Of a stretch of 64,000 bases of DNA, positions 4,762 to 57,700 are shown in pieces. The notes under the pieces were generated by a model that was given only the letters and a program-made list of their open reading frames with translations, searched no databases and had not been told where the DNA came from. How positions within the stretch are numbered: the first letter of the stretch is position 1; each line of letters opens with the position of its first letter. The translations under genes and the position numbers were made by a program. Source of the stretch: Chlorops oryzae (taxonomy: Eukaryota > Arthropoda > Insecta > Diptera > Chloropidae); NCBI GenBank assembly GCA_020466095.1, contig CM035807.1, positions 9,484,697 to 9,548,696 on the forward strand. The letters run 5' to 3'.

Positions 4762-4803
4762 TTTACTTAAAAAAGTGACACGGTTTTTTGAAGTCGGTTA
4801 AAA

Positions 4804-6645
4804 ATGGCAAATTACGCGAATCAAATCGAAAAGTTAAATAGCGAAAATTACGCTACGTGGGTGATCCAAATGAAAAGTCTCTTAGTGACTTTGGATTACT
4901 GGAATGTAGTGGAAAAACGGTGCACTTCGAATGAACCGGCGGAAAAGGCGTTGTGGTTGGCGCTTGACCAAAAGACATTAGCAACAATATTACTTTGTGT
5001 TAAACCGTCTGAATTGGTGCATGTAAAAAATTGTGCGTCGGCAAAGCAAGCTTGGGAGACTTTGCGTTCCCTGTACAAGACACAAGGTCCTGCACGGAAG
5101 GTTTCTTTGTTCAAGAAACTTGTGAAATTTAAGTTCGACAGATCGCAGAAATTCGCGCCTCAATTAAATGCATATAGTGCAATTATTGATGACTTAAAAG
5201 AAATTGATATAGAGCTATCGGACGATTTTTTGGTAATAATGCTATTGTGTAGTTTACCCGAAGAAATGGAAAATTTCGTTGTCGCGATGGAAAGCAGGGG
5301 TAGTTTACCGTTATTGAATCAGCTAGTCTCTAGAATTGTCGACGAAGAACGCCGCTTGAGCGAAAAAAATCAAAGCGAGCAAGAAACGGTACTCTCAGTA
5401 AATTCGCAAAATAAGAACAATCAAAACAACAAGAAAAACGAAAAGAGTGAAAACAAGAAACCGCGAAAATCCAATAAGAAAAATATGTCGTGTTTTGCGT
5501 GCGGGAAAAAGGGACATATTCGTTCGGAGTGTAAAGCAAACGTAAATACCGTAGTTCTTAATGCGGCAGTTAATGAGAGTGACAAGGATGACTGGATTTT
5601 AGACAGTGGAGCATCCTCTCACTTCTGCAGAGATAAAAAATATTTTGTTTCAATTTCTCCGAAAACGATTAATATAACATTGGCGTCGGGTGAACTCGTT
5701 AAAGCACAAGGTATTGGAACAGTGCAATTAACTTCAAAGTTCTGCGAAGTGGTCGTGTGTGACGTATTATTCGTTCCAAATCTACATTCTAATTTCATCT
5801 CGGTCAGTAAGATCGTTGAAAAAGGCCATAAAGTATTTTTTGGAAAAAACGAAACAGTCGTAACGGCGAAAGACGGTAGAAAAGCGTTTTCGGCAAAAAT
5901 TCGAAACGGTACATTTTTCGTGGAAGTTGCGAATATCGAAAGTGAGAAAAGTGAGATGAAGAGCGATGAATACGCAAGTGCAGGAACAGAAAAAGACAAA
6001 AATTTTAAAATGTGGCACAAACGGTTTGGACACTTAAACGCAAAAGACTTGTATGCGCTTTCGAATAAACAGCTCGTGCGCGGTTTAAATGTAAACATTC
6101 CGCAAGATTTTAAATGTATAACGTGCGCGCTATGCAAAATTAAGGAAAAACCGTATAAATCAAACTCAACCATTTCGTCGAAAGATATTTTGCAGCTCGT
6201 TCATACTGACGTATGTGGTCCAATGAGGGTGACATCTCAAGGCGGAGCTGTGTATTATATCACTTTCATTGATGATTTCTCCAGATATATAGAGGTGAAA
6301 TTTCTCCGCAAGAAGTCAGACGCGTTCAATGCTTTCAAAGAATTCGTCATAAGAGCAGAAAATCAGTCTGGGAAAAAACTGAAGGCAGTAAGGAGCGACA
6401 ACGGCCGTGAGTATATTAATTCGAGTTTCACAAATTTTTTGAATCAGAAAGGAATAGAGCATCAAACAACGGTAAGCTACTCACCGCAACAAAATGGTGT
6501 CGCAGAGCGTGCAAACCGAACGCTGACAGAAATGGCACGTTGCATGCTTAAAGATGCTGATCTTCCTCAAAATTTATGGGCGGAGGCGGTGAAAACGTCC
6601 GCTTATATACGGAATCGATCATCAACGAAAATCTTAAATGGATGA
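4804..6645 (+). CDS. Copia-like Gag, protease and integrase portion of polyprotein (ends at premature TGA)
   Basis: 613 codons from the first ATG after the primer site to an in-frame TGA at 6643-6645. The N-terminal part looks like copia Gag (UBN2 type). It is followed by a CCHC zinc knuckle, CFACGKKGHIRSEC, at residues 230-243 for RNA packaging. The aspartic protease signature DSGASSH begins at residue 267 and should release the mature proteins. A GAG-pre-integrase block starts near MWHKRFGHLN (residue 403). The integrase core has D469, D532 (DNGREY) and E568, a D,D-35-E triad. The frame after the TGA continues in the same phase into the reverse transcriptase half, and full-length copia polyproteins are about 1400 residues, so the TGA is a nonsense substitution rather than a natural gag/pol boundary. 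It falls in the linker between integrase and reverse transcriptase. Confidence 0.94.
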   Translation: MANYANQIEKLNSENYATWVIQMKSLLVTLDYWNVVEKRCTSNEPAEKALWLALDQKTLATILLCVKPSELVHVKNCASAKQAWETLRSLYKTQGPARKVSLFKKLVKFKFDRSQKFAPQLNAYSAIIDDLKEIDIELSDDFLVIMLLCSLPEEMENFVVAMESRGSLPLLNQLVSRIVDEERRLSEKNQSEQETVLSVNSQNKNNQNNKKNEKSENKKPRKSNKKNMSCFACGKKGHIRSECKANVNTVVLNAAVNESDKDDWILDSGASSHFCRDKKYFVSISPKTINITLASGELVKAQGIGTVQLTSKFCEVVVCDVLFVPNLHSNFISVSKIVEKGHKVFFGKNETVVTAKDGRKAFSAKIRNGTFFVEVANIESEKSEMKSDEYASAGTEKDKNFKMWHKRFGHLNAKDLYALSNKQLVRGLNVNIPQDFKCITCALCKIKEKPYKSNSTISSKDILQLVHTDVCGPMRVTSQGGAVYYITFIDDFSRYIEVKFLRKKSDAFNAFKEFVIRAENQSGKKLKAVRSDNGREYINSSFTNFLNQKGIEHQTTVSYSPQQNGVAERANRTLTEMARCMLKDADLPQNLWAEAVKTSAYIRNRSSTKILNG

Positions 6646-8790
6646 ACGCCGTACGAAAAATGGGTAGGAAGGAAACCATCAGTGGCTCACTTTAAGACTT
6701 TCGGATGCGATGTTGTTGTGCTGCGGAAAGGACCGAAGCGAGGAAAATTTGAACCGAAAGGCGATAAACTGACCTTTATTGGCTACGCTGATATGACAAA
6801 AGGCTACAGGCTCTACGATAAGCAACGCAAAACAGTTATTGTTGGAAGAGACGTTTTATGTTTCGAAGATGATCTGGATAAAGAAACTGCTGAACGAATT
6901 TCCGATGAGAGGCAGGATGACTTCTTCTATGCAGCGGTACCAACAGCTGTAAGCAGTGGTGATGAGCGTCACATTGGCTCTCCTAACGAAGAGGGAGCGG
7001 ACCATCCCAACGACGAAGGCGATGATCCAGTTGAATCAGAAGTTGAGGAATATGAATCTGCAGACAGCGACAGTGATGAAATTTCTTCAACAGAAAATGA
7101 AGGAATTGATTCTCATTCAGTAGGTGTGAACGCGGACGGACGTTTACCTGGAAGACCTAGAATTGAGCGGACTGGCAGACGAGGCAGACCAAAAAAGATT
7201 TATAGAACTGCGACGTTGAATGGACTATCGGAGGCTCCACGGACCATAACAGAAGCAATGAATTCCAAAGAAGCAAATCAGTGGAAAATGGCAATGAAGA
7301 CGGAGTACGATTCGTTGGTACGAAATAAGACTTGGGAATTGGTCGATAAACCACAAACTGGAAATTGCATTGGTTGTAAATGGGTCTACACTATCAAAAG
7401 AAATGCAGATGGTTCGGTGGAACGCTACAAGGCGCGACTGGTGGCCCACGGATGTGCTCAGAAGTTTAATATTGACTACACGGAGACGTTCTCTCCCGTT
7501 GTCCGGCACTCGACTATTAGACTAATTTTGGCGCTTTCAGCGAAATATGAGTTATTGGTAAACCACGTCGACGTAGTTGCTGCCTACTTAAATGGCGATT
7601 TGAGTGAGGTAATATACATGAACCAACCTCCGATGTTCGAAAGTGGATCGAATTCAGGCAAAGTATGCAGACTTAAGAAGGCACTCTATGGACTGAAACA
7701 GGCTGGACGTGAGTGGAACAAAAAGGCGACGGAGATACTCATCCAAATGGGATTTGTCAGATGCAAATCAGACAATTGTGTTTACGTAAAAAGGAGCGAC
7801 AGCAATGTTAACGTGATTGCTTTGTATGTCGACGATATTCTGTTGGCTTGTTCATCGGAAAAGGAAATGAATCGGATCATTAACGATTTGAACAAACATG
7901 TTGAAGCAGTGGATCGTGGAGCCGTTTCGTTTTATTTGGGGATGCAAGTCGAGCGCGAAGGTGTTCGTGGAGCAATCTCAATTCATCAAAACCAATATGT
8001 TGAGCAGCTATTGAAGCAGTTCAACATGTGTGACTGTAAGGCGGCAGCAACTCCTTGGGCAAGCGGCACTGTTTTGACTAAATGCGAAAATCAGTGTAAT
8101 CCTGGAGAAATGGATCAAAAGGCTTATCAATCTTTGATAGGCAGTTTAATGTATCTGGTTGTTATATCGAGGCCGGATATTGCTCATGTCGTCGCTAAAT
8201 TATCGCAATTCAATTCACATCCACATAAGGAACATTATACTGCAGCAAAACATGTGTTGCGTTACTTAAAAGGCGCACCTAAAGGTATAATTAACTATCA
8301 TTCCCATAAAAAATCCTTTGTATGTTTCACAGATTCCGACTGGGGCACTGATGCAAGTGATCGCAAATCTTTTAGCGGTTATGTGATGTTTTTGGCTGGC
8401 GGTGCCGTTGCTTGGGAATCTAAAAAACAGCACGTGGTCTCGCTCAGCTCAATGGAAGCAGAATATGTGGCTTTGTGTCAGGGCGCAAAGGAAATCGCAT
8501 TTCATCGTTATCTTTTGGCTGAAATGGGGTTTACTGAACTCCTACGTGATCCGACCAAGATTATGTGCGACAATCAAGGAGCTCAATTCTTGGTAAAAAA
8601 TCAAGCTGTACAAAAACGCAGCAAACATATTGACATAAAGATGCATTATATTCGGGACCAATATGAGGCTAAGAAAATTGATGTCGAATACGTCGAAACG
8701 TCTGAAAATGCGGCTGACATATTAACCAAATGTCTTACTAAAGAAAAACATAAGAATGGTTGTAATATGCTGAAATTAAAACTAAATTGA
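6646..8790 (+). pseudogene. Copia-like reverse transcriptase and RNase H portion, cut off from Gag by upstream TGA
   Basis: Same frame as the upstream portion. The first internal ATG is at 6682 (702 codons), but the natural protein is part of the larger polyprotein. An acidic, repeat-poor linker (about residues 80-150 counted from 6682) precedes the reverse transcriptase. The palm catalytic box YVDD is at 7825-7836, about residue 382. An RNase H domain follows, with FTDSDWGTD near 8326-8352, then SSMEAEYVAL and CDNQGA as the other acidic residues. It converts element RNA to double-stranded DNA in virus-like particles. No other frameshift or stop is visible, so one substitution separates this copy from an open polyprotein. 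It ends with TGA at 8788-8790, 50 bp before the 3' LTR. Confidence 0.9.
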
Positions 8791-19989: not shown

Positions 19990-21033
19990 CGTTGCACAGT
20001 GAGATTTCAGCGGCAAAAATAGGATTTTTTGACCATCCTAATTTTATGATTTTTCGATTTAATCTAACTTTTATCTAGATAAGAATAATTCAAAACTGTT
20101 TTTTCAAAAAACATAATTTTTTTATATAAAAAATTAAGCTAAAGATAGAAAATGTTTTTTTCTTCGAAAAATTGAAAAAAAAAATTTCAAATTGGTTCCC
20201 ATTTTTTTCGGATTAAATCTACCACTGTTGCTATAAAGGTGAGTTTTTATTAAAATTTAGAGTTTGATTTTTAAAAGGAATTAAAAATTGTGGCATTTTA
20301 TTGAATATCGAAGAGGAGGTGGGCTATCAAAAATTCTACCTCGAAAATGACGCCTTTCCTTTTTTCAATGGACAAAAAGTTTATATGCTTTGTCGTGCTT
20401 TGTCTTCTAGTTGATAAAAAATAAAAGTCTGGAGTCTGTTCTAACGATCTATGAAAAAAAATTTACCGCCCACTTACGATTGTCTCGATAAAGTCCATTT
20501 TTATGTTAAAAATCACCGCGCAAATGTCTGGATATTACGAAAAAAAATCATTGCATATGTTAAGGATGATCAGTATTCATTAACGCTTTATTATAATTTC
20601 TGATGGCAATGTTTATAAGAAATTAAGAACTAACTAAGAAATTGCAAAAACAAAACATTATATTAAAATTTTTGTTTACGAATGTGAGAACATACGAAAC
20701 TATGATGATATTCATACTGAAAAGGCAGTTATCCAGTGGAAGTACCCCTAGGGACTCTCAGATTTGAACCATTTTTTGTATATATTCGTTTTTGAGTATA
20801 AACAACATTCTGACAAAGTTTCATTAAAATCGGTTGAGTTTTAGATGTAGCTGCCATACAAAACTGCATGTAGGGGTCTATGGGGGGTACCCAAAGAGGT
20901 GAACCGATTTCGATAAATTTTAGTTTATATCTTAATGACCTCAATTTACATCCGCATACCAATTTTCATTGTGATAGGACTATTCCTTCTATTTTTTGCC
21001 GCACGATGTATGGGACAATCCCACTGTGCGTTG
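19990..21033. mobile_element. Non-autonomous Transib-like element with RSS-like ends
   Basis: The element proper is 19995-21028 (1034 bp) between 5-bp direct repeats CGTTG (19990-19994 and 21029-21033). Both ends start CACAGTG read inwards, then RGATT. Transib elements make GC-rich 5-bp duplications and have CACWRTG ends, and RAG recombination signals share the CACAGTG heptamer. Inside each end lies the same block GCGGCAAAAAATAG (left GCGGCAAAAATAG, with one A fewer). At the left, 12 bases separate the heptamer from CAAAAATAG (20002-20013). At the right, 23 bases separate it from CAAAAAATAG (20999-21021, minus strand). The interior has no transposase, only short frames, so mobilisation would need an enzyme in trans. 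Assignment to Transib rests on ends and duplication only. Confidence 0.75.
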
Positions 21034-22975: not shown

Positions 22976-23151
22976 ACCGGATGAACACCACACAACCCCA
23001 ATTACTTTGTGTTGTGGTGGCAGGCGTTCACCCTATAAAACGGCCATGCTCGAACAAAAGTATAGAAGGATTGTATATGAGGTCATGTGCATTAATACCT
23101 ACCAAGTGTATTGCGGTTCATCGCTTCTGTAAGCAGCATATTGGCCGCTGC
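22976..23151 (+). repeat. Dispersed 175-bp repeat, copy 1 (partner at 29388)
   Basis: Matches 29388-29566 in the same orientation at roughly 80% identity. Shared words include ATTACTTTGTGTTGT, AAAACGGC, AAAAGTATAG, AGGATTGTATATGAGGTC and GTTCATCGC. No ends resembling a known transposon. Short overlapping frames are not conserved between copies, so it is not coding. Confidence 0.75.
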
Positions 23152-29387: not shown

Positions 29388-29566
29388 GACCGAATGAACA
29401 GCACACAACCTCGATTACTTTGTGTTGTAGTGGTAGGCGTCCAACTCTACAAAACGGCTACGCTCGAATAAAAGTATAGTAGGATTGTATATGAGGTCGT
29501 GTGCGTTACCGCCTACGAAGTGTGTTACAGTTCATCGCCTCTGTTAACAGCATTTTCGCCGCTGGG
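29388..29566 (+). repeat. Dispersed 175-bp repeat, copy 2
   Basis: Partner of 22976-23151. The sequence on either side differs between the two copies, so the shared block is a mobile or duplicated unit rather than part of a longer local duplication. Confidence 0.75.
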
Positions 29567-48770: not shown

Positions 48771-49818
48771 AAAATGGAAAAAAAGGAATTTCGTGATTTG
48801 ATAAAATACTGTTTTCTGAAGGGAAAAAATACAGTGGAAGCAAAAACTTGGCTTGATAATGAGTTTCCGGACTCTGCCCCAGGAAAATCAACAATAATTG
48901 ATTGGTATGCAAAATTCAAGCGTGGTGAAATGAGCACGGATGACGGTGAACGCAGTGGACGCCCGAAAGAGGTGGTTACCGACGAAAACATCAAAAAAAT
49001 TCAAAAATGATTTTGAATGACCGTAAAATGAAGTTGATCGAGATAGAAGAGGCCTTAAAGATATCAAAGGAACGTGTTGGTCATATCATTCATCAATATT
49101 TGGATATGAAAAAGCTCTGTGCAAAATGGGTGCCGCGCGAGCTCACATTTGACCAAAAACAACAACGTGTTGATGATTCTGAGCGGTGTTTGCAGCTGTT
49201 AACTCGCAATACACCCGAGTTTTTGCGTCGATATGTGACAATGGATGAAACATGGCTCTATCACTACACTCCTGAGTCCAATCGACAGTCGGCTGAGTGG
49301 ACAGCGATCGGTGAACCGTCTCCGAAGCGTGGAAAGACTCAAAAGTCCGCTGGCAAAGTAAAGGCCTCTGTTTTTTGGGATGGGCATGGAATAATTTTTA
49401 TCGATTATCTTGAGAAGGGAAAAACCATCAACAGTGACTATTATATGTCGTTATTGGAGCGTTTGAAGGTCGAAATCGCGGCAAAACGGCCCCATATGAA
49501 GAAGAAAAAAGTGTTGTTCCACCAAGACAACGCACCGTGCCACAAGTCATTGAGAACGATGGCAAAAATTCATGAATTAGGCTTCGAATTGCTTCCCCAC
49601 CCACCGTATTCTCCAGATCTGGCCCCAGCGACTTTTTCTTGTTCTCAGACCTCAAAAGGATGCTCGCAGGGAAAAAATTTTGCTGCAATGAAGAGGTGAT
49701 CGCCGAAACTGAGGCCTATTTTGAGGCAAAATCGAAGGAGTACTACCAAAATGGTATCAAAAAATTGGAAGGTCGTTATAATCGTTGTATCGCTCTTGAA
49801 GGGAACTATGTTGAATAA
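48771..49818 (+). pseudogene. Mariner transposase pseudogene (two 1-nt frameshifts)
   Basis: Starts MEKKEFRDLIKY, with a paired helix-turn-helix N-terminus (SGRPKEVVTDENIKK). Frame 1 stops near 49008 after a 1-nt loss at about 48999-49004. Frame 2 carries WVPREL, MDETW (first catalytic Asp) and FHQDNAPCH (second Asp), and is shifted again by a 1-nt loss at about 49625 in the run after SPDL. The third catalytic Asp (D34D spacing, APSD region) survives in the next frame, which runs to RCIALEGNYVE and TAA at 49816-49818. Length matches the family (about 348 residues). The protein would cut and paste mariner DNA at TA, but this copy cannot make a full product. Sequence is close to Himar1, so it is fairly young. 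Confidence 0.92.
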
Positions 49819-51928: not shown

Positions 51929-52958
51929 TTTCATTAATAACGTCGCAAATCAAATTCATCGTCTTCGAAGCAGAAATGGTCAAATTGTGAAACTTTATTG
52001 TTAAAATCAACGAATATTTTCTACCTTATCAACTTTATCGCAACGCACCCGAATCATCGAAGTATCAAAAGTCGAAATAAATAAAAAAAAAAAAACAAAA
52101 AAAAAAACAAAATTGGTTGAACAGAGAAGCGCGACACAAAGCACTTTTCGGAAATAAGAGAAAATTTATTGAACGCAAAAAAAAAAAAAACTATCCACAT
52201 CGTATACCACTAGCTTAAAGCCAAATGCCATCATCAAAAATAATATTTTATACCTCAGAGCACGGTTAAGGCAAGTCGTCACGTCACACCCATCACCCAA
52301 AATAGAGCTTGGTTCATACGAAATAACAAAGGAAAAGAATCGCACTTTAAGGCAACTTCAATAGAAAACAGAGCAAAAGGAAAAAAGTTCAATTCAATTA
52401 AACACATCACCCGATCCGATCATATAAGCACAATTGGAAAAAGTGAAATTGCAATTTCGCAAAATTAAGGAAATAAATCATTTTTTTTTTTTAAATCATA
52501 ACAATCCGCCATTAAAAGCTGCCATTGGCACGCACCGGAATCGAACACAAACGCACGCACGCACCCGCTTCAAAACCGTCCGCCTTTGAATAGCAAACAC
52601 ACACACATAAGCATACATACACTTCACTCACAGCTTTTTAATGCAACGTCCTGAGCAATAAAATTGATATATATATATACAAATAAAGGAAAATTTCAAA
52701 CATTCAAAAAAAATAAAAAATAAAAAAAAACAATTCAAAAACGCTTAAATTACCTCAAGACACACGTGCCAATCCTGCAAAACCGTTTGCAAATCAAACG
52801 CCATTCATATGCCCACTAAGCCTAAGACCATTCGCAAAGGCACGAATACCTCACCATCGATTCGCTCCGCTCCGCTCTGTTCCGCTCTGTTCCGGTCTGA
52901 GCCGCTTCGAATCAACGTTCGGTTGGTCTTAAAAACGAAGTCAAAGTAGCGCTACAAA
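51929..52958 (+). other. Calx: Probable Calx 5' UTR
   Basis: A-rich leader of about 1 kb with several poly-A and CA tracts and several upstream ATGs with very short frames, which may limit translation. The last 100 bp are C/T and G-rich (TCCGCTCCGCTCTGTTCCG repeats at 52863-52900), so a second, proximal promoter could also lie here; I see no clean Inr/DPE pair. The start context CTACAAAATG is good for flies. Confidence 0.5.
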
Positions 52959-54706
52959 ATGACTCAAAACCGCTGCCTGACGATTGAATTTTTATTTGAA
53001 TTTGTGCTTGTGGCACTGTTATCCTTGGCGGGCACAACAACGCTCACACTTGCGGCGCCAACAACAACAGCAACCGATTATTCAGTTGAACCGCAATCAT
53101 CACCCTTGAACGGCTCGACGAATGCTGCGCATGATGAGACACGATGTGTCGATGGCCTATTACTGCCAGTGTGGGAGCCGCAGGATAATCTCTCGCTTGG
53201 TGATCGTATTTCTCGGGGAATGATCTATTTCTTTGCGATGGTCTATCTATTCATTGGCGTTTCGATAGTCTCGGATCGCTTTATGGCGGCCATCGAAGTT
53301 ATAACTTCGAAGGAAAAGGAAGTGGTTATCAAAAAGAAGAACGGTGAGCGACAGATCGTTGTGGTGCGTGTCTGGAATGAAACGGTGGCAAATTTAACGC
53401 TCATGGCCCTGGGCTCGAGTGCTCCAGAGATTTTGCTATCGGTGATTGAAATGTTTGCAAAAGATTTTGAGGCCGGTGATCTGGGCCCAGGCACAATTGT
53501 TGGCTCAGCCGCGTATAATCTCTTCGTCATTATTGCGATTTGTATTGTCGTCATACCCAATGGAGAGTCGCGTAAGATTAAGCATTTGCGTGTGTTCTTC
53601 GTGACGGCGACATGGTCAGTTTTCGCCTATATTTGGCTTTATCTAATACTGGCACAGATAACACCCGGCCGCATCGAAGTGTGGGAGGGTCTACTCACGT
53701 TTATGTTCTTCCCAGCCACTGTGCTGACCGCCTATATTGCCGATAGGCGTTTACTTATCTATAAGTATCTGGATAAGAACTATCGTATGAACAAGCGTGG
53801 CGTTATTGTGAGCGCCGAGGGTGATCCCACATTAGAGATGAACCAGAAGGACGAAGGATTGAAGAAGCTCGGCGACGGTGACGAAGTTCGTGATTTCGAT
53901 GAGGCGCGTCGACAGTATATAACGCTGTTAAAAGATCTGCGCAAGAAATATCCGCAAATGAATTTGGAACAATTGGAAGCGATGGCACAGGAGCAAATGA
54001 TAAATCGCGGTCCGAAATCGCGTGCATTCTATCGGATACAGGCGACACGACGTATGGTCGGCAGCGGTAATATTTTGCGGAAAATTCAAGAACGTGCCCA
54101 GAGTGATCTGAGCGAAGTGAAGGCACAATTGCAACGCGCCGATGGCGATGACGATGACGATATGGATGCTGCTGTCCGTTTATGCTTCGAACCGGGTCAC
54201 TATACGGTCATGGAGAGTTGTGGTGAATTCGAATTGCGCGTTGTCCGTTTGGGCGATTTATCCGGTTATACGACCGTTGAATATCATACCGAAGATGGTT
54301 CGGCTGAGGCGGGAAGTGATTATGTTGGTAAGAAGGGGATTCTCAATTTTCCGCCCGGCGTGGACGAGCAACGCTTTAAAGTTGAAATCATCGACGATGA
54401 TGTATTCGAGCAGGATGAGCATTTCTATGTACGACTTTTGAATCCCTCAGAGCCAGCTGTACTAGTTCAACCGAGAGTGGCCACTGTCATGATTTTAGAT
54501 GATGATCACGCTGGTATATTCGCTTTTGCACAGAAAGATCATGAGCTTGTTGAATCGATTGGTACATATGAATTAAGATTACAACGATTTTCGGGTGCGC
54601 GCGGCAGAGTTGCGATACCATACTGGACGGAGGACGGTACGGCCAAGGCTGCCAAGGACTACGAAGAGACCCATGGAGAGATGGTCTTCGAGAATAACGA
54701 AACGGA
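52959..54706 (+). CDS. Calx: Na+/Ca2+ exchanger Calx, N-terminal coding exon (partial)
   Basis: 582 codons plus 2 nt of a sodium/calcium exchanger that expels Ca2+ across the plasma membrane in exchange for Na+ (3:1 in the family), for example in photoreceptors and muscle. An N-terminal hydrophobic segment (about residues 9-33) looks like a cleaved signal. A Thr/Ser-rich extracellular part and five membrane helices (about 87-110, 143-165, 178-200, 210-232 and 240-262) follow. The alpha-1 ion-binding repeat has GSSAPE at 152-157. A basic segment after helix 5 (RRLLIYKYLDKNYRMNKRG) corresponds to the XIP autoinhibitory region. The cytosolic loop carries calcium-binding domain 1 (about 400-516, acidic IIDDDVFEQDE from 477 and LDDDHAG from 513) and the beginning of domain 2. 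The exon closes in phase 2 at a donor GGA|GTGAGTATC (GT at 54707). The remaining domain 2, alpha-2 repeat and last helices must lie beyond 64000. Confidence 0.97.
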
Positions 54707-57700
54707 GTGAGTATCAAATGAAAGTAAAAAAAAAAAAAATACCCCTTTACATCAAATAGTATCATAGCAAATCTTTGAGTAGACGGTTGAGGGGTTTTTT
54801 TATTTTTGGAGGTATTTTACCACTATGTTAATTGCCTTGACCTCTCTCATTTAAACGCATTTTGTGGTTTCATCACTGCCGGGGCTGTGTTTCCGGTTTA
54901 GGTCATGCAATGCGCTTGCGGCTGACGGCGGTAATATGAAATTTGTTTACTTTGTAGGTATAATAAGCTAACGAGAGCCATTTAATTAAGAGGCTGCCGC
55001 TCGTCAGTGACTTTTGTTTCTCGTTTTATTGAGTAAATAAATAAAAGCGCTGCGAATTTGTAGCGTTCTTTTTAATTCATTCTCGGAAATGAAATCATTC
55101 TTTGGCTAGCATGGGCCAAAGCTCAAGCCCAAGTGTACTTCAATGGTTGTGCCTCTGAAGAGCCTCTTTTGCTTCAAGATGTTTCTTAATGATATTTACA
55201 AAGAAATGTAAATAATATGATACAAAGAACTCTTTTGGAATGTAGTATTTCCTCATGGCTGGAATTGTGAAAGCCTTAAGAGCTAATTGACTGTGATTTC
55301 ATCGTGGCTTTGTGAAGTTATTCGGCGGATTGTATTAATGATGATATTTGTTTTTTTTTTTTTCCTCCGAACTCATTTCGAGCCACATTATGGGTTTCGC
55401 ACGTGCCAAACGAAGACCAATGGACATAATATTTTTGATACGTTTTTCACTCGAAACTATTAAGCAAAATTAAAAGGATTAAAGAGAAACAAAAGAATCC
55501 TTTGAATGCCCTTCAGTTATGAAGAGGTCAGCTTACCTAAAAAGAGTGTACTCTGAAGCTACTCAATTTTATCATTATTCAAGTCAAAATTAATGCAGAT
55601 CTTTTATATCGATTATTATCTTATGAGAATTGACCTAGACCATTGAGTAGAGAATTAACGGTTTGATTGAACTGATCACAGTCATAGGACAATTTACCTC
55701 TAATATACCGCAGGAAGTCTAGGTGTTCACCTAGAAAGTTGAATGTTTGAGCGATTATTTTTCAATGACAGCTCAATGTTAAATAATTATTTTATAATAT
55801 TATTATTATATAATACCGTTTAAGGCAATAATGGTTGCCGATTAAAAGACTAGACAATAGTACTGACGCCATTACGTCAGCAGTCTCGACTCGACCAAAG
55901 ATTTCTGCGTGATTTCTGACATCAGTTAATAACATACCTCTAAGGCTTGGTTGGCGAAAAGTGTCAGTATGCCTTACTCTGAGTATCGACAAGATTTATG
56001 AATAATATTCATTCCACTCGTGCATTTTTCGTAGAATATTTTCATGAGTTTAGGATGGCTTTCCGAGTCGAACTTAAGGATAAGGCCTTTGGTATTTTTG
56101 TGACTAGTCGGCGATTGGTTGGAGAATAGTAGGAATTGCTTCAGGGTGTAAACAAGGCTATTTTAATGTTGTCTGAGTACAGTGGCAGCAAAAAGAGTAA
56201 TAAACATGTTAGCCTTAATAACTCTCCGGAGCATATTCGCCAATTGTACATTTATAAAAATAAAAAAAACAACAGCTGTGCTTTATTTTTATGGAGACAT
56301 AATTTTAATGAAGACATAAGTGACCAAATACGAGCTTTAATTTCTCTCAGAAAGAGCTCAGAAAATATATTATTGCTTGTTCTCTCTATTCCTTCAATAA
56401 AATTTCTAAGTCTTCGACATGAGCCTTCCAGTATATTTTGCAAAACTTCTTTCAGTGTCCTGTGCTCTAGATCCAAAATGGTATCAGTTCAGAGACTATG
56501 GGTAGATATTTCACTCTGATTTGATACAACATCTCCTCAAACCTGTATTACCTTTTTCATTCACCATCAACAATACTAGGAAAAACTATCCTTCAGTTCA
56601 CATCGTTCTAAGATTTATTACAAATTTCATAGCCTCTAACCATAACGATCAAACATTCGAAAAAGACATGAAAAAATCGAAAAAAATGAATCCCATAAAG
56701 CTAATCCATATTCTCCGTTCATTCAATTCATCCTTTGTTCGAGCAGTATGCCAAAGAAGAAACAAAAAACCAAAAACGCCCCGCCTCCTGTCAATTTCCG
56801 AATCCTATTTCGGCTCTCAAAGCCTTACATTCATCGAAACATAAATTTTAATATGCTTGCAATGCCAGTAAAACTCGTAATTAAGGGATTCTTATGAAAG
56901 GAACGACCAGAAACACTCTTATGAGCTCGCATTTATGCGTTGTTTTCACGTTGCCAGCACACAGCATAAAAGCGTAAGCACACCCATGCAGGCTTACACA
57001 GGCCGCGTACATACATACATACATACATACATACATGACCTACGTGCGAATATGTCGTAGTTTCTATGCAACGAGAATGTTTGTTTGCTTTTTATGCTCT
57101 TTCGCCTTTAGATCAGTTAGCGCTAAGCAACGGTCGGAAACCATAAAATTTGCCGAATGTCATGGGGATTTCAATTTGTTCCAATCGATACCATTGGCTA
57201 AGCACACACCAGGGTCTGACAATAGCGATGGTACCAAAACCGAAAAAACGAAAAAAACAAAAAAACAATTTTAAACAACAACACATTTTACCTCGTGCTC
57301 GTGTGCTACCTGTTCGTCTAGTACGATATTCTCTACCTAAAACGCTTTGAATTCAAGTGCATGTGTTACGTAGAAAATTTATGCACATATTCACTACTAG
57401 GTCGCCACTTAGGGCCTCCACCTCCATCACTCACATGCAAAAACAAACGAAAACAGCACACACACACACATACACTCGCACACAAACCATAACACATGTA
57501 TAGAGAGACGCTCGACTGTTCAGACATATTATCAAGCTGATGCATGGCGGGCACGACGGCCGTATGTGGTATCCCATTGAGCTAGTTGCTGCAGACAAAC
57601 CAAACAAATAAGCACATTGCCGCGCTGTCATTCAAACACTCGATTGCCAGTTAGGCTAGGCAAGGGTCTTCGAAACGGGCGTAGTTTTGTCGTATTCCGC

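Follow-up and report, generated by a model that had tools for sequence, protein, structure and literature searches.

RAG1, the antibody-gene recombinase, is thought to descend from the Transib family of transposons, a superfamily that duplicates 5 bp of its target with a preference for CGNCG. The 12/23 rule of antibody-gene recombination has few known counterparts, of which asymmetric Transib ends are one, and the earlier description of such ends in insects reportedly goes back, as we presume, to Kapitonov and Jurka in 2005. Most Transib families are symmetric (PMC8289069), and Subgroup II contains both asymmetric and symmetric ends (PMC9435367). By definition, the asymmetric type separates heptamer and nonamer by spacers of 12 and 23, with a tolerance of 1 (PMC8355894), and insect Transibs with such 12/23-like ends have been published before (PMC8355894, PMC9435367). 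PMC identifiers, here and below, stand for those passages of the papers that bear on the point made.

Here we describe a transposon in the window, by which we mean the whole 64-kb stretch of DNA that was analyzed. A first-pass annotation of the window had singled it out as an asymmetric-spacer element. That description held for the 12/23-like ends in a non-autonomous Transib. The annotation did not say whether such ends had been seen before; asymmetry in insects had been published (PMC8355894). A search of the openly licensed literature turned up no paper that was evidently about the family in the window.

The element and its two ends

The element occupies positions 19995-21028 of the window (1034 bp) and is flanked on either side by CGTTG, with the left 5-bp target-site duplication (19990-19994) equal to the right one (21029-21033), in a family whose duplications are CGNCG-like. 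At the short-spacer end, which reads on the + strand, an RSS-like CACAGTG heptamer (19995-20001) is followed by an 8-bp gap to GCGGC (20002-20009) and by an A-rich, nonamer-like block, GCGGCAAAAATAGG (20010-20023). The long-spacer end reads on the - strand, where the same RSS-like CACAGTG heptamer (21022-21028) is followed by a 19-bp gap to GCGGC (21003-21021) and by the A-rich, nonamer-like block GCGGCAAAAAATAG (20989-21002). The distance from CACAGTG to GCGGCAAAAA is accordingly 8 bp at the left end and 19 bp at the right end. The duplications, the heptamers and the blocks were all exactly where the first-pass annotation had placed them.

The length of the two spacers depends on where the count stops. 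Counted to CAAAAA they are 12 bp at the left (12-type) end and 23 bp at the right (23-type) end, and counted to the best match to the nonamer ACAAAAACC they are 11 bp and 22 bp. That match is 6/9 at both ends and, because the block is A-rich, is partly compositional. Spacers of 12 and 23 had originally been claimed together with a nonamer match of 6 of 9; each figure is correct, but they come from different alignments, with the 6/9 match sitting at 11/22. The 11-bp difference between the ends, which had been claimed as well, holds under either count.

In the 64-kb window each strand holds a single GCGGCAAAAA, and the two lie precisely at the ends of the element. The number of heptamer-plus-block ends expected per window by base composition is 7e-5. 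A generic scan for an inverted repeat with a target duplication missed the element, because the block shared by its ends is a 10-mer and the scan required a common 11-mer; the scan gave 4 hits across 60 random control windows and was not counted as evidence. Elsewhere in the window are three other features whose identities we assume from resemblance: two adjacent long frames (4792-8790) that, by their motifs, we take to be a copia-type retrotransposon, a 249-aa frame (48950-49699) that is presumably a mariner-type transposase, and a 586-aa frame (52950-54710) that presumably encodes a Calx-like sodium/calcium exchanger.

Copies in the genome and the constancy of their ends

The window element has at least 43 matches in its own genome (442 Mb, 1044 contigs), a lower bound because 40 of 592 first-look candidates were scored. 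We took 39 stretches with flanks, which hold all 42 matches besides the window copy. Among these stretches and the window copy, 30 of 40 copies had identical 5-bp flanks (duplication letters C26 G24 N C23 G23), and the heptamer was exact in 34 of the 40 left ends and in the same number of the 40 right ends; among the exceptions, several were truncated. The best aligned stretches of the copies were 95.3–98.3% identical to the consensus of the family, and the A-rich block was present in that consensus, as the first-pass annotation had anticipated. One more diverged copy recovered in the genome search was 87% identical to the window copy.

Empty sites bore out the 5-bp duplication for three copies other than the one in the window (L014, L026 and L047), each with a paralogous place that has a single copy of the target and flanks that are 85–88% identical. 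The paralogue of the L026 place is located in L052 and that of L047 in L007. For L014 there are two, both in the window (22997-23150 and 29412-29566), and these two stretches are copies of one repeat. Copies at several nearby places on contig C2 (L066; L025 and L035) share the duplication CGGCG and resemble one another in their flanks, which suggests segmental duplication after insertion. In L067 (4937-6598) a 554-aa DDE_Tnp_1_7 transposase frame lies between two parts of a window-family copy, as if inserted there.

To follow the end geometry we scanned 83 loci, leaving the gap free at 4–30 bp and allowing mismatches. Besides the window and the 39 stretches, these comprised 43 at other end matches, and most of the 83 had been selected by their match to the window family or its ends. 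With L035, L041 and L066 left out as duplicates, the scan yielded 38 end pairs with identical 5-bp duplications (letters C33 G32 N C28 G30), of which 37 were 8/19 and one, in L095, was 8/20. No symmetric pair was found among those 38 from the 83 loci, in agreement with the prediction that other copies would also have unequal spacers. Five loci whose duplications had a one-base mismatch between them gave four pairs of 8/19 and one of 8/20. Of the 37 loci without a pair having matching duplications, six had a short end that faced a long one, and the others had one recognizable end, or one such end and an unrelated match.

The 38 pairs show stable inheritance of the geometry and not a rule: because the copies of a family descend from one another, they do not amount to 38 independent tests of pairing. 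The occurrence of one short and one long end in every pair is what a true 12/23-like pairing rule would produce if, in this Transib clade and without RAG2, productive synapsis needed one end of each kind, and the preference of ProtoRAG for asymmetric pairs (PMC8289069) points the same way. However, uniform pairing would follow just as well from shared descent, and mouse RAG1 alone does not favor 12/23 signals over 12/12 ones (PMC8355894), and we regard such a rule as possible but rather doubtful.

A genome-wide search in which the gap was left free (CACAGTG, 6–24 bases, then GCGGCARAAAWA) gave 107 matches, compared with 0 for the reversed control. In a hand tally from match lengths, the gaps in 100 of the 107 were 8 (78 matches), 9 (1), 19 (17) and 20 (4), with no other value, in a pattern that under-counts long ends, because the long end of the window family reads GCGGCAAAAAATAG and falls outside it. 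A looser block with gaps of 9–18 bp gave 4 matches in the genome versus 2 in the control; of the four, those with gaps of 18 and 9 resemble ends of related elements, unlike the two with a gap of 16. We rejected these matches as true intermediate spacers, as the control had also given two. Copy number and the free-gap search together rule out a chance origin of the ends.

Longer relatives and other Transib lineages

A longer element on contig C3, L068 (3228 bp, duplication CGTCG), has the 8/19 ends of the window family with transposase pieces inside. The family consensus aligns to both end regions of L068 and lacks ~2.1 kb between them, in addition to a smaller gap of ~0.17 kb. The large gap coincides with the position of the L068 transposase frames, a region that is missing from the non-coding interior of the window element (20024-20988). 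A 171-aa L068 frame matches the 6pqn transposase chain (6.7e-26), and the transposase aligns to that of another element, L071, and to database relatives; a Pfam search of two L068 pieces found no domain. L068 itself is not the active source, because stops and frame changes disrupt its transposase and because the residue aligned to the third catalytic residue, a Glu (numbering of PMC6941560), reads as Gln in the alignments when judged by eye. Another longer relative is L087 together with L097 (2578 bp, duplication CGTCC), which combines one short and one long window-family end with a transposase match that contains five stops. Thus, where the first-pass annotation had looked to an autonomous Transib with the same ends, we found the transposase pieces of L068, but they are broken, and among the loci examined no uninterrupted transposase had exactly these ends.

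CGNCG-like 5-bp duplications, CACAGTG heptamers and RAG1-core-like transposase pieces between the same ends are features of the Transib superfamily, and L068 in particular upholds the Transib identity that had been proposed for the window element. The spacers are constant across copies, and both counts, 11/22 and 12/23, lie within one base of the 12 and 23 of the asymmetric class. We therefore consider the window element to be, very probably, a non-autonomous Transib DNA transposon that derives from a ~3.2-kb parent and is moved in trans by the RAG1-core-like transposase of that parent. A heptamer-like CA end, being short, could originate by chance in a single element, so one might suppose an element of another cut-and-paste superfamily whose resemblance to RSSs is coincidental; we rejected this reading, which is scarcely credible given that the duplications are CGNCG-like and that ends of this kind enclose pieces of a Transib transposase. 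Three observations that had been named in advance as fatal to the Transib interpretation, namely copies with equal spacers, a consensus lacking the block and a related element from another superfamily, were not made at any of the loci examined.

As a non-autonomous Transib, the window element would have arisen by internal deletion in a ~3.2-kb element whose RAG1-core-like transposase would move the family in trans. The heptamer would be the expected cutting site of this transposase, whose N-terminal nonamer-binding-like region may contact the A-rich block; the distance to that block would differ by one helical turn between the two ends. Insertion would take place at CGNCG-like sites with a 5-bp duplication. 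The transposase may also prefer to pair one short end with one long end, in which case the asymmetry would act as a pairing rule.

A related lineage is represented on contig C2 by L099 (3050 bp, duplication TGACG), with 8/19 ends, a 5/9 nonamer match at the short end and an uninterrupted frame of 551 aa, measured stop to stop. The L099 transposase is 45–61% identical to the aligned L068 pieces and, by eye from the translation, contains the three catalytic acidic residues. Among the matches listed, three further places in the genome score the same as L099 (140.7 bits) and have open frames of 387, 550 and 551 aa. For a midpoint-rooted tree we hand-picked 24 of the 120 database proteins listed and added three lineage proteins and the 171-aa L068 piece. 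L099 grouped with L068 (support 81/71), the placement of L068 being unsure with so short a piece; the two adjoined a group with a Helicoverpa protein, and L071 and L100 fell into other groups.

The genome has at least 150 Transib-like transposase matches to the L068 piece, which are not to be equated with whole elements (150 of 439 candidates were scored, and few matches were examined further). Many of those listed have open frames of 500–730 aa, and they represent several diverged lineages. Because autonomous Transibs typically occur in one or few copies (PMC4411706), this abundance is unusual. Pfam searches with three more frames located close to end matches gave a DDE_Tnp_1_7 transposase for one, a weak retroviral-protease-like match for another and no match for the third.

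A second family (L052-L056, with L057 similar) has 8/19 ends, and its alignment to the window family is confined to these ends and does not extend into the interior; L052, L053, L054 and L057 have Transib transposase remnants inside. A 1484-bp candidate, L062, has a short end, but its long end is less clear. For a further transposase lineage in L054, the left end was searched for and not found. CATACAT is present in the long spacer of the window family, and a CATACAT-like motif in the long ends of L052-L056, L054:4108, L061, L099 and L058 (in L058 as CATATAT), making this a recurrent motif in the long spacers of several diverged families.

Other lineages in the same genome have a different geometry. 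L071/L074 (G000:C1:80597073-80600129) is 3057 bp long, with duplication CGACG and a 654-aa open frame in which Pfam recognizes a RAG1 domain (PF12940) and which matches the 6pqn chain at 7.4e-106. Its ends are symmetric, with CCAAAAATG and TCAAAAATC each 22 bp from its own CACAGTG. L100 has a 730-aa frame and two ends that align without offset and contain no clear nonamer; these ends look symmetric, and its flanks differ and so lend no target-duplication support. Because symmetric Transibs such as L071 occur in the same genome, asymmetry is unnecessary for Transib mobility as such.

These lineages bear on whether the 11-bp difference has any function. It could simply be inherited, with the transposase reading the heptamer-proximal part alone, as has been proposed for invertebrate RAG-like transposons. 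Consistent with this idea, the copies share descent, the genome also contains the symmetric L071 and the apparently symmetric, nonamer-poor L100, and invertebrate RAGL recognition has been argued to work through the terminal ~15–17 bp and to be relatively insensitive to asymmetry (PMC7204232). However, the second family, despite its unalignable interior, and L099 both retain the block and the 11-bp difference, and between families with a clear block the letters of the spacer change while its length stays constant within one base. We consider functionless inheritance quite possible, if short of probable. A bolder proposal is that one Transib clade enforces 12/23-like pairing with a single transposase and no RAG2, next to other lineages in the same nucleus that are symmetric. 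We think this unlikely, but if it were true, the genome would offer a natural series for the origin of the 12/23 rule.

Comparison with described systems

The genome is unusual in the scale of its Transib content, and it brings together many asymmetric copies, the L099 frame between ends of matching geometry, and at least one symmetric lineage. With these three in one genome, it becomes possible to ask whether the transposase alone recognizes the asymmetry and whether asymmetry predates RAG2.

The window family is of the asymmetric insect Transib type that has already been described. The L068 piece and the L071 transposase both match PDB entry 6pqn, and five further entries are likewise titled 'DNA-mediated transposase'; we take all six to be HzTransib. 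Like the window family, HzTransib of Helicoverpa zea makes a 5-bp target duplication (PMC1852546), and unlike it, HzTransib has symmetric ends with little or no nonamer similarity (PMC8289069). Closer in geometry are Transib5 of Drosophila melanogaster and Transib2, N1, N2 and N3 of Anopheles gambiae, whose ends share the 12/23 asymmetry according to the legend of Figure 2 in PMC8355894; they are likened here by description alone, and some may be close relatives of the window family.

Among transposons with a RAG1-like transposase, ProtoRAG of amphioxus and AanRAGL of Aureococcus anophagefferens resemble the window family in having asymmetric bipartite ends but differ from it in their spacers, which are 27/31 in ProtoRAG and 4/13 in AanRAGL (PMC8289069, PMC9435367). 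Both also carry RAG2-like genes, and the likeness to the window family rests on the transposase and the ends (PMC8289069, PMC9435367). With the vertebrate 12RSS and 23RSS the window element shares the heptamer CACAGTG, an A-rich element and one end that is longer by about one helical turn, whereas its nonamer agrees at 6/9 positions, its best-match spacers are 11/22, and it marks the end of a transposon rather than a signal in a receptor gene.
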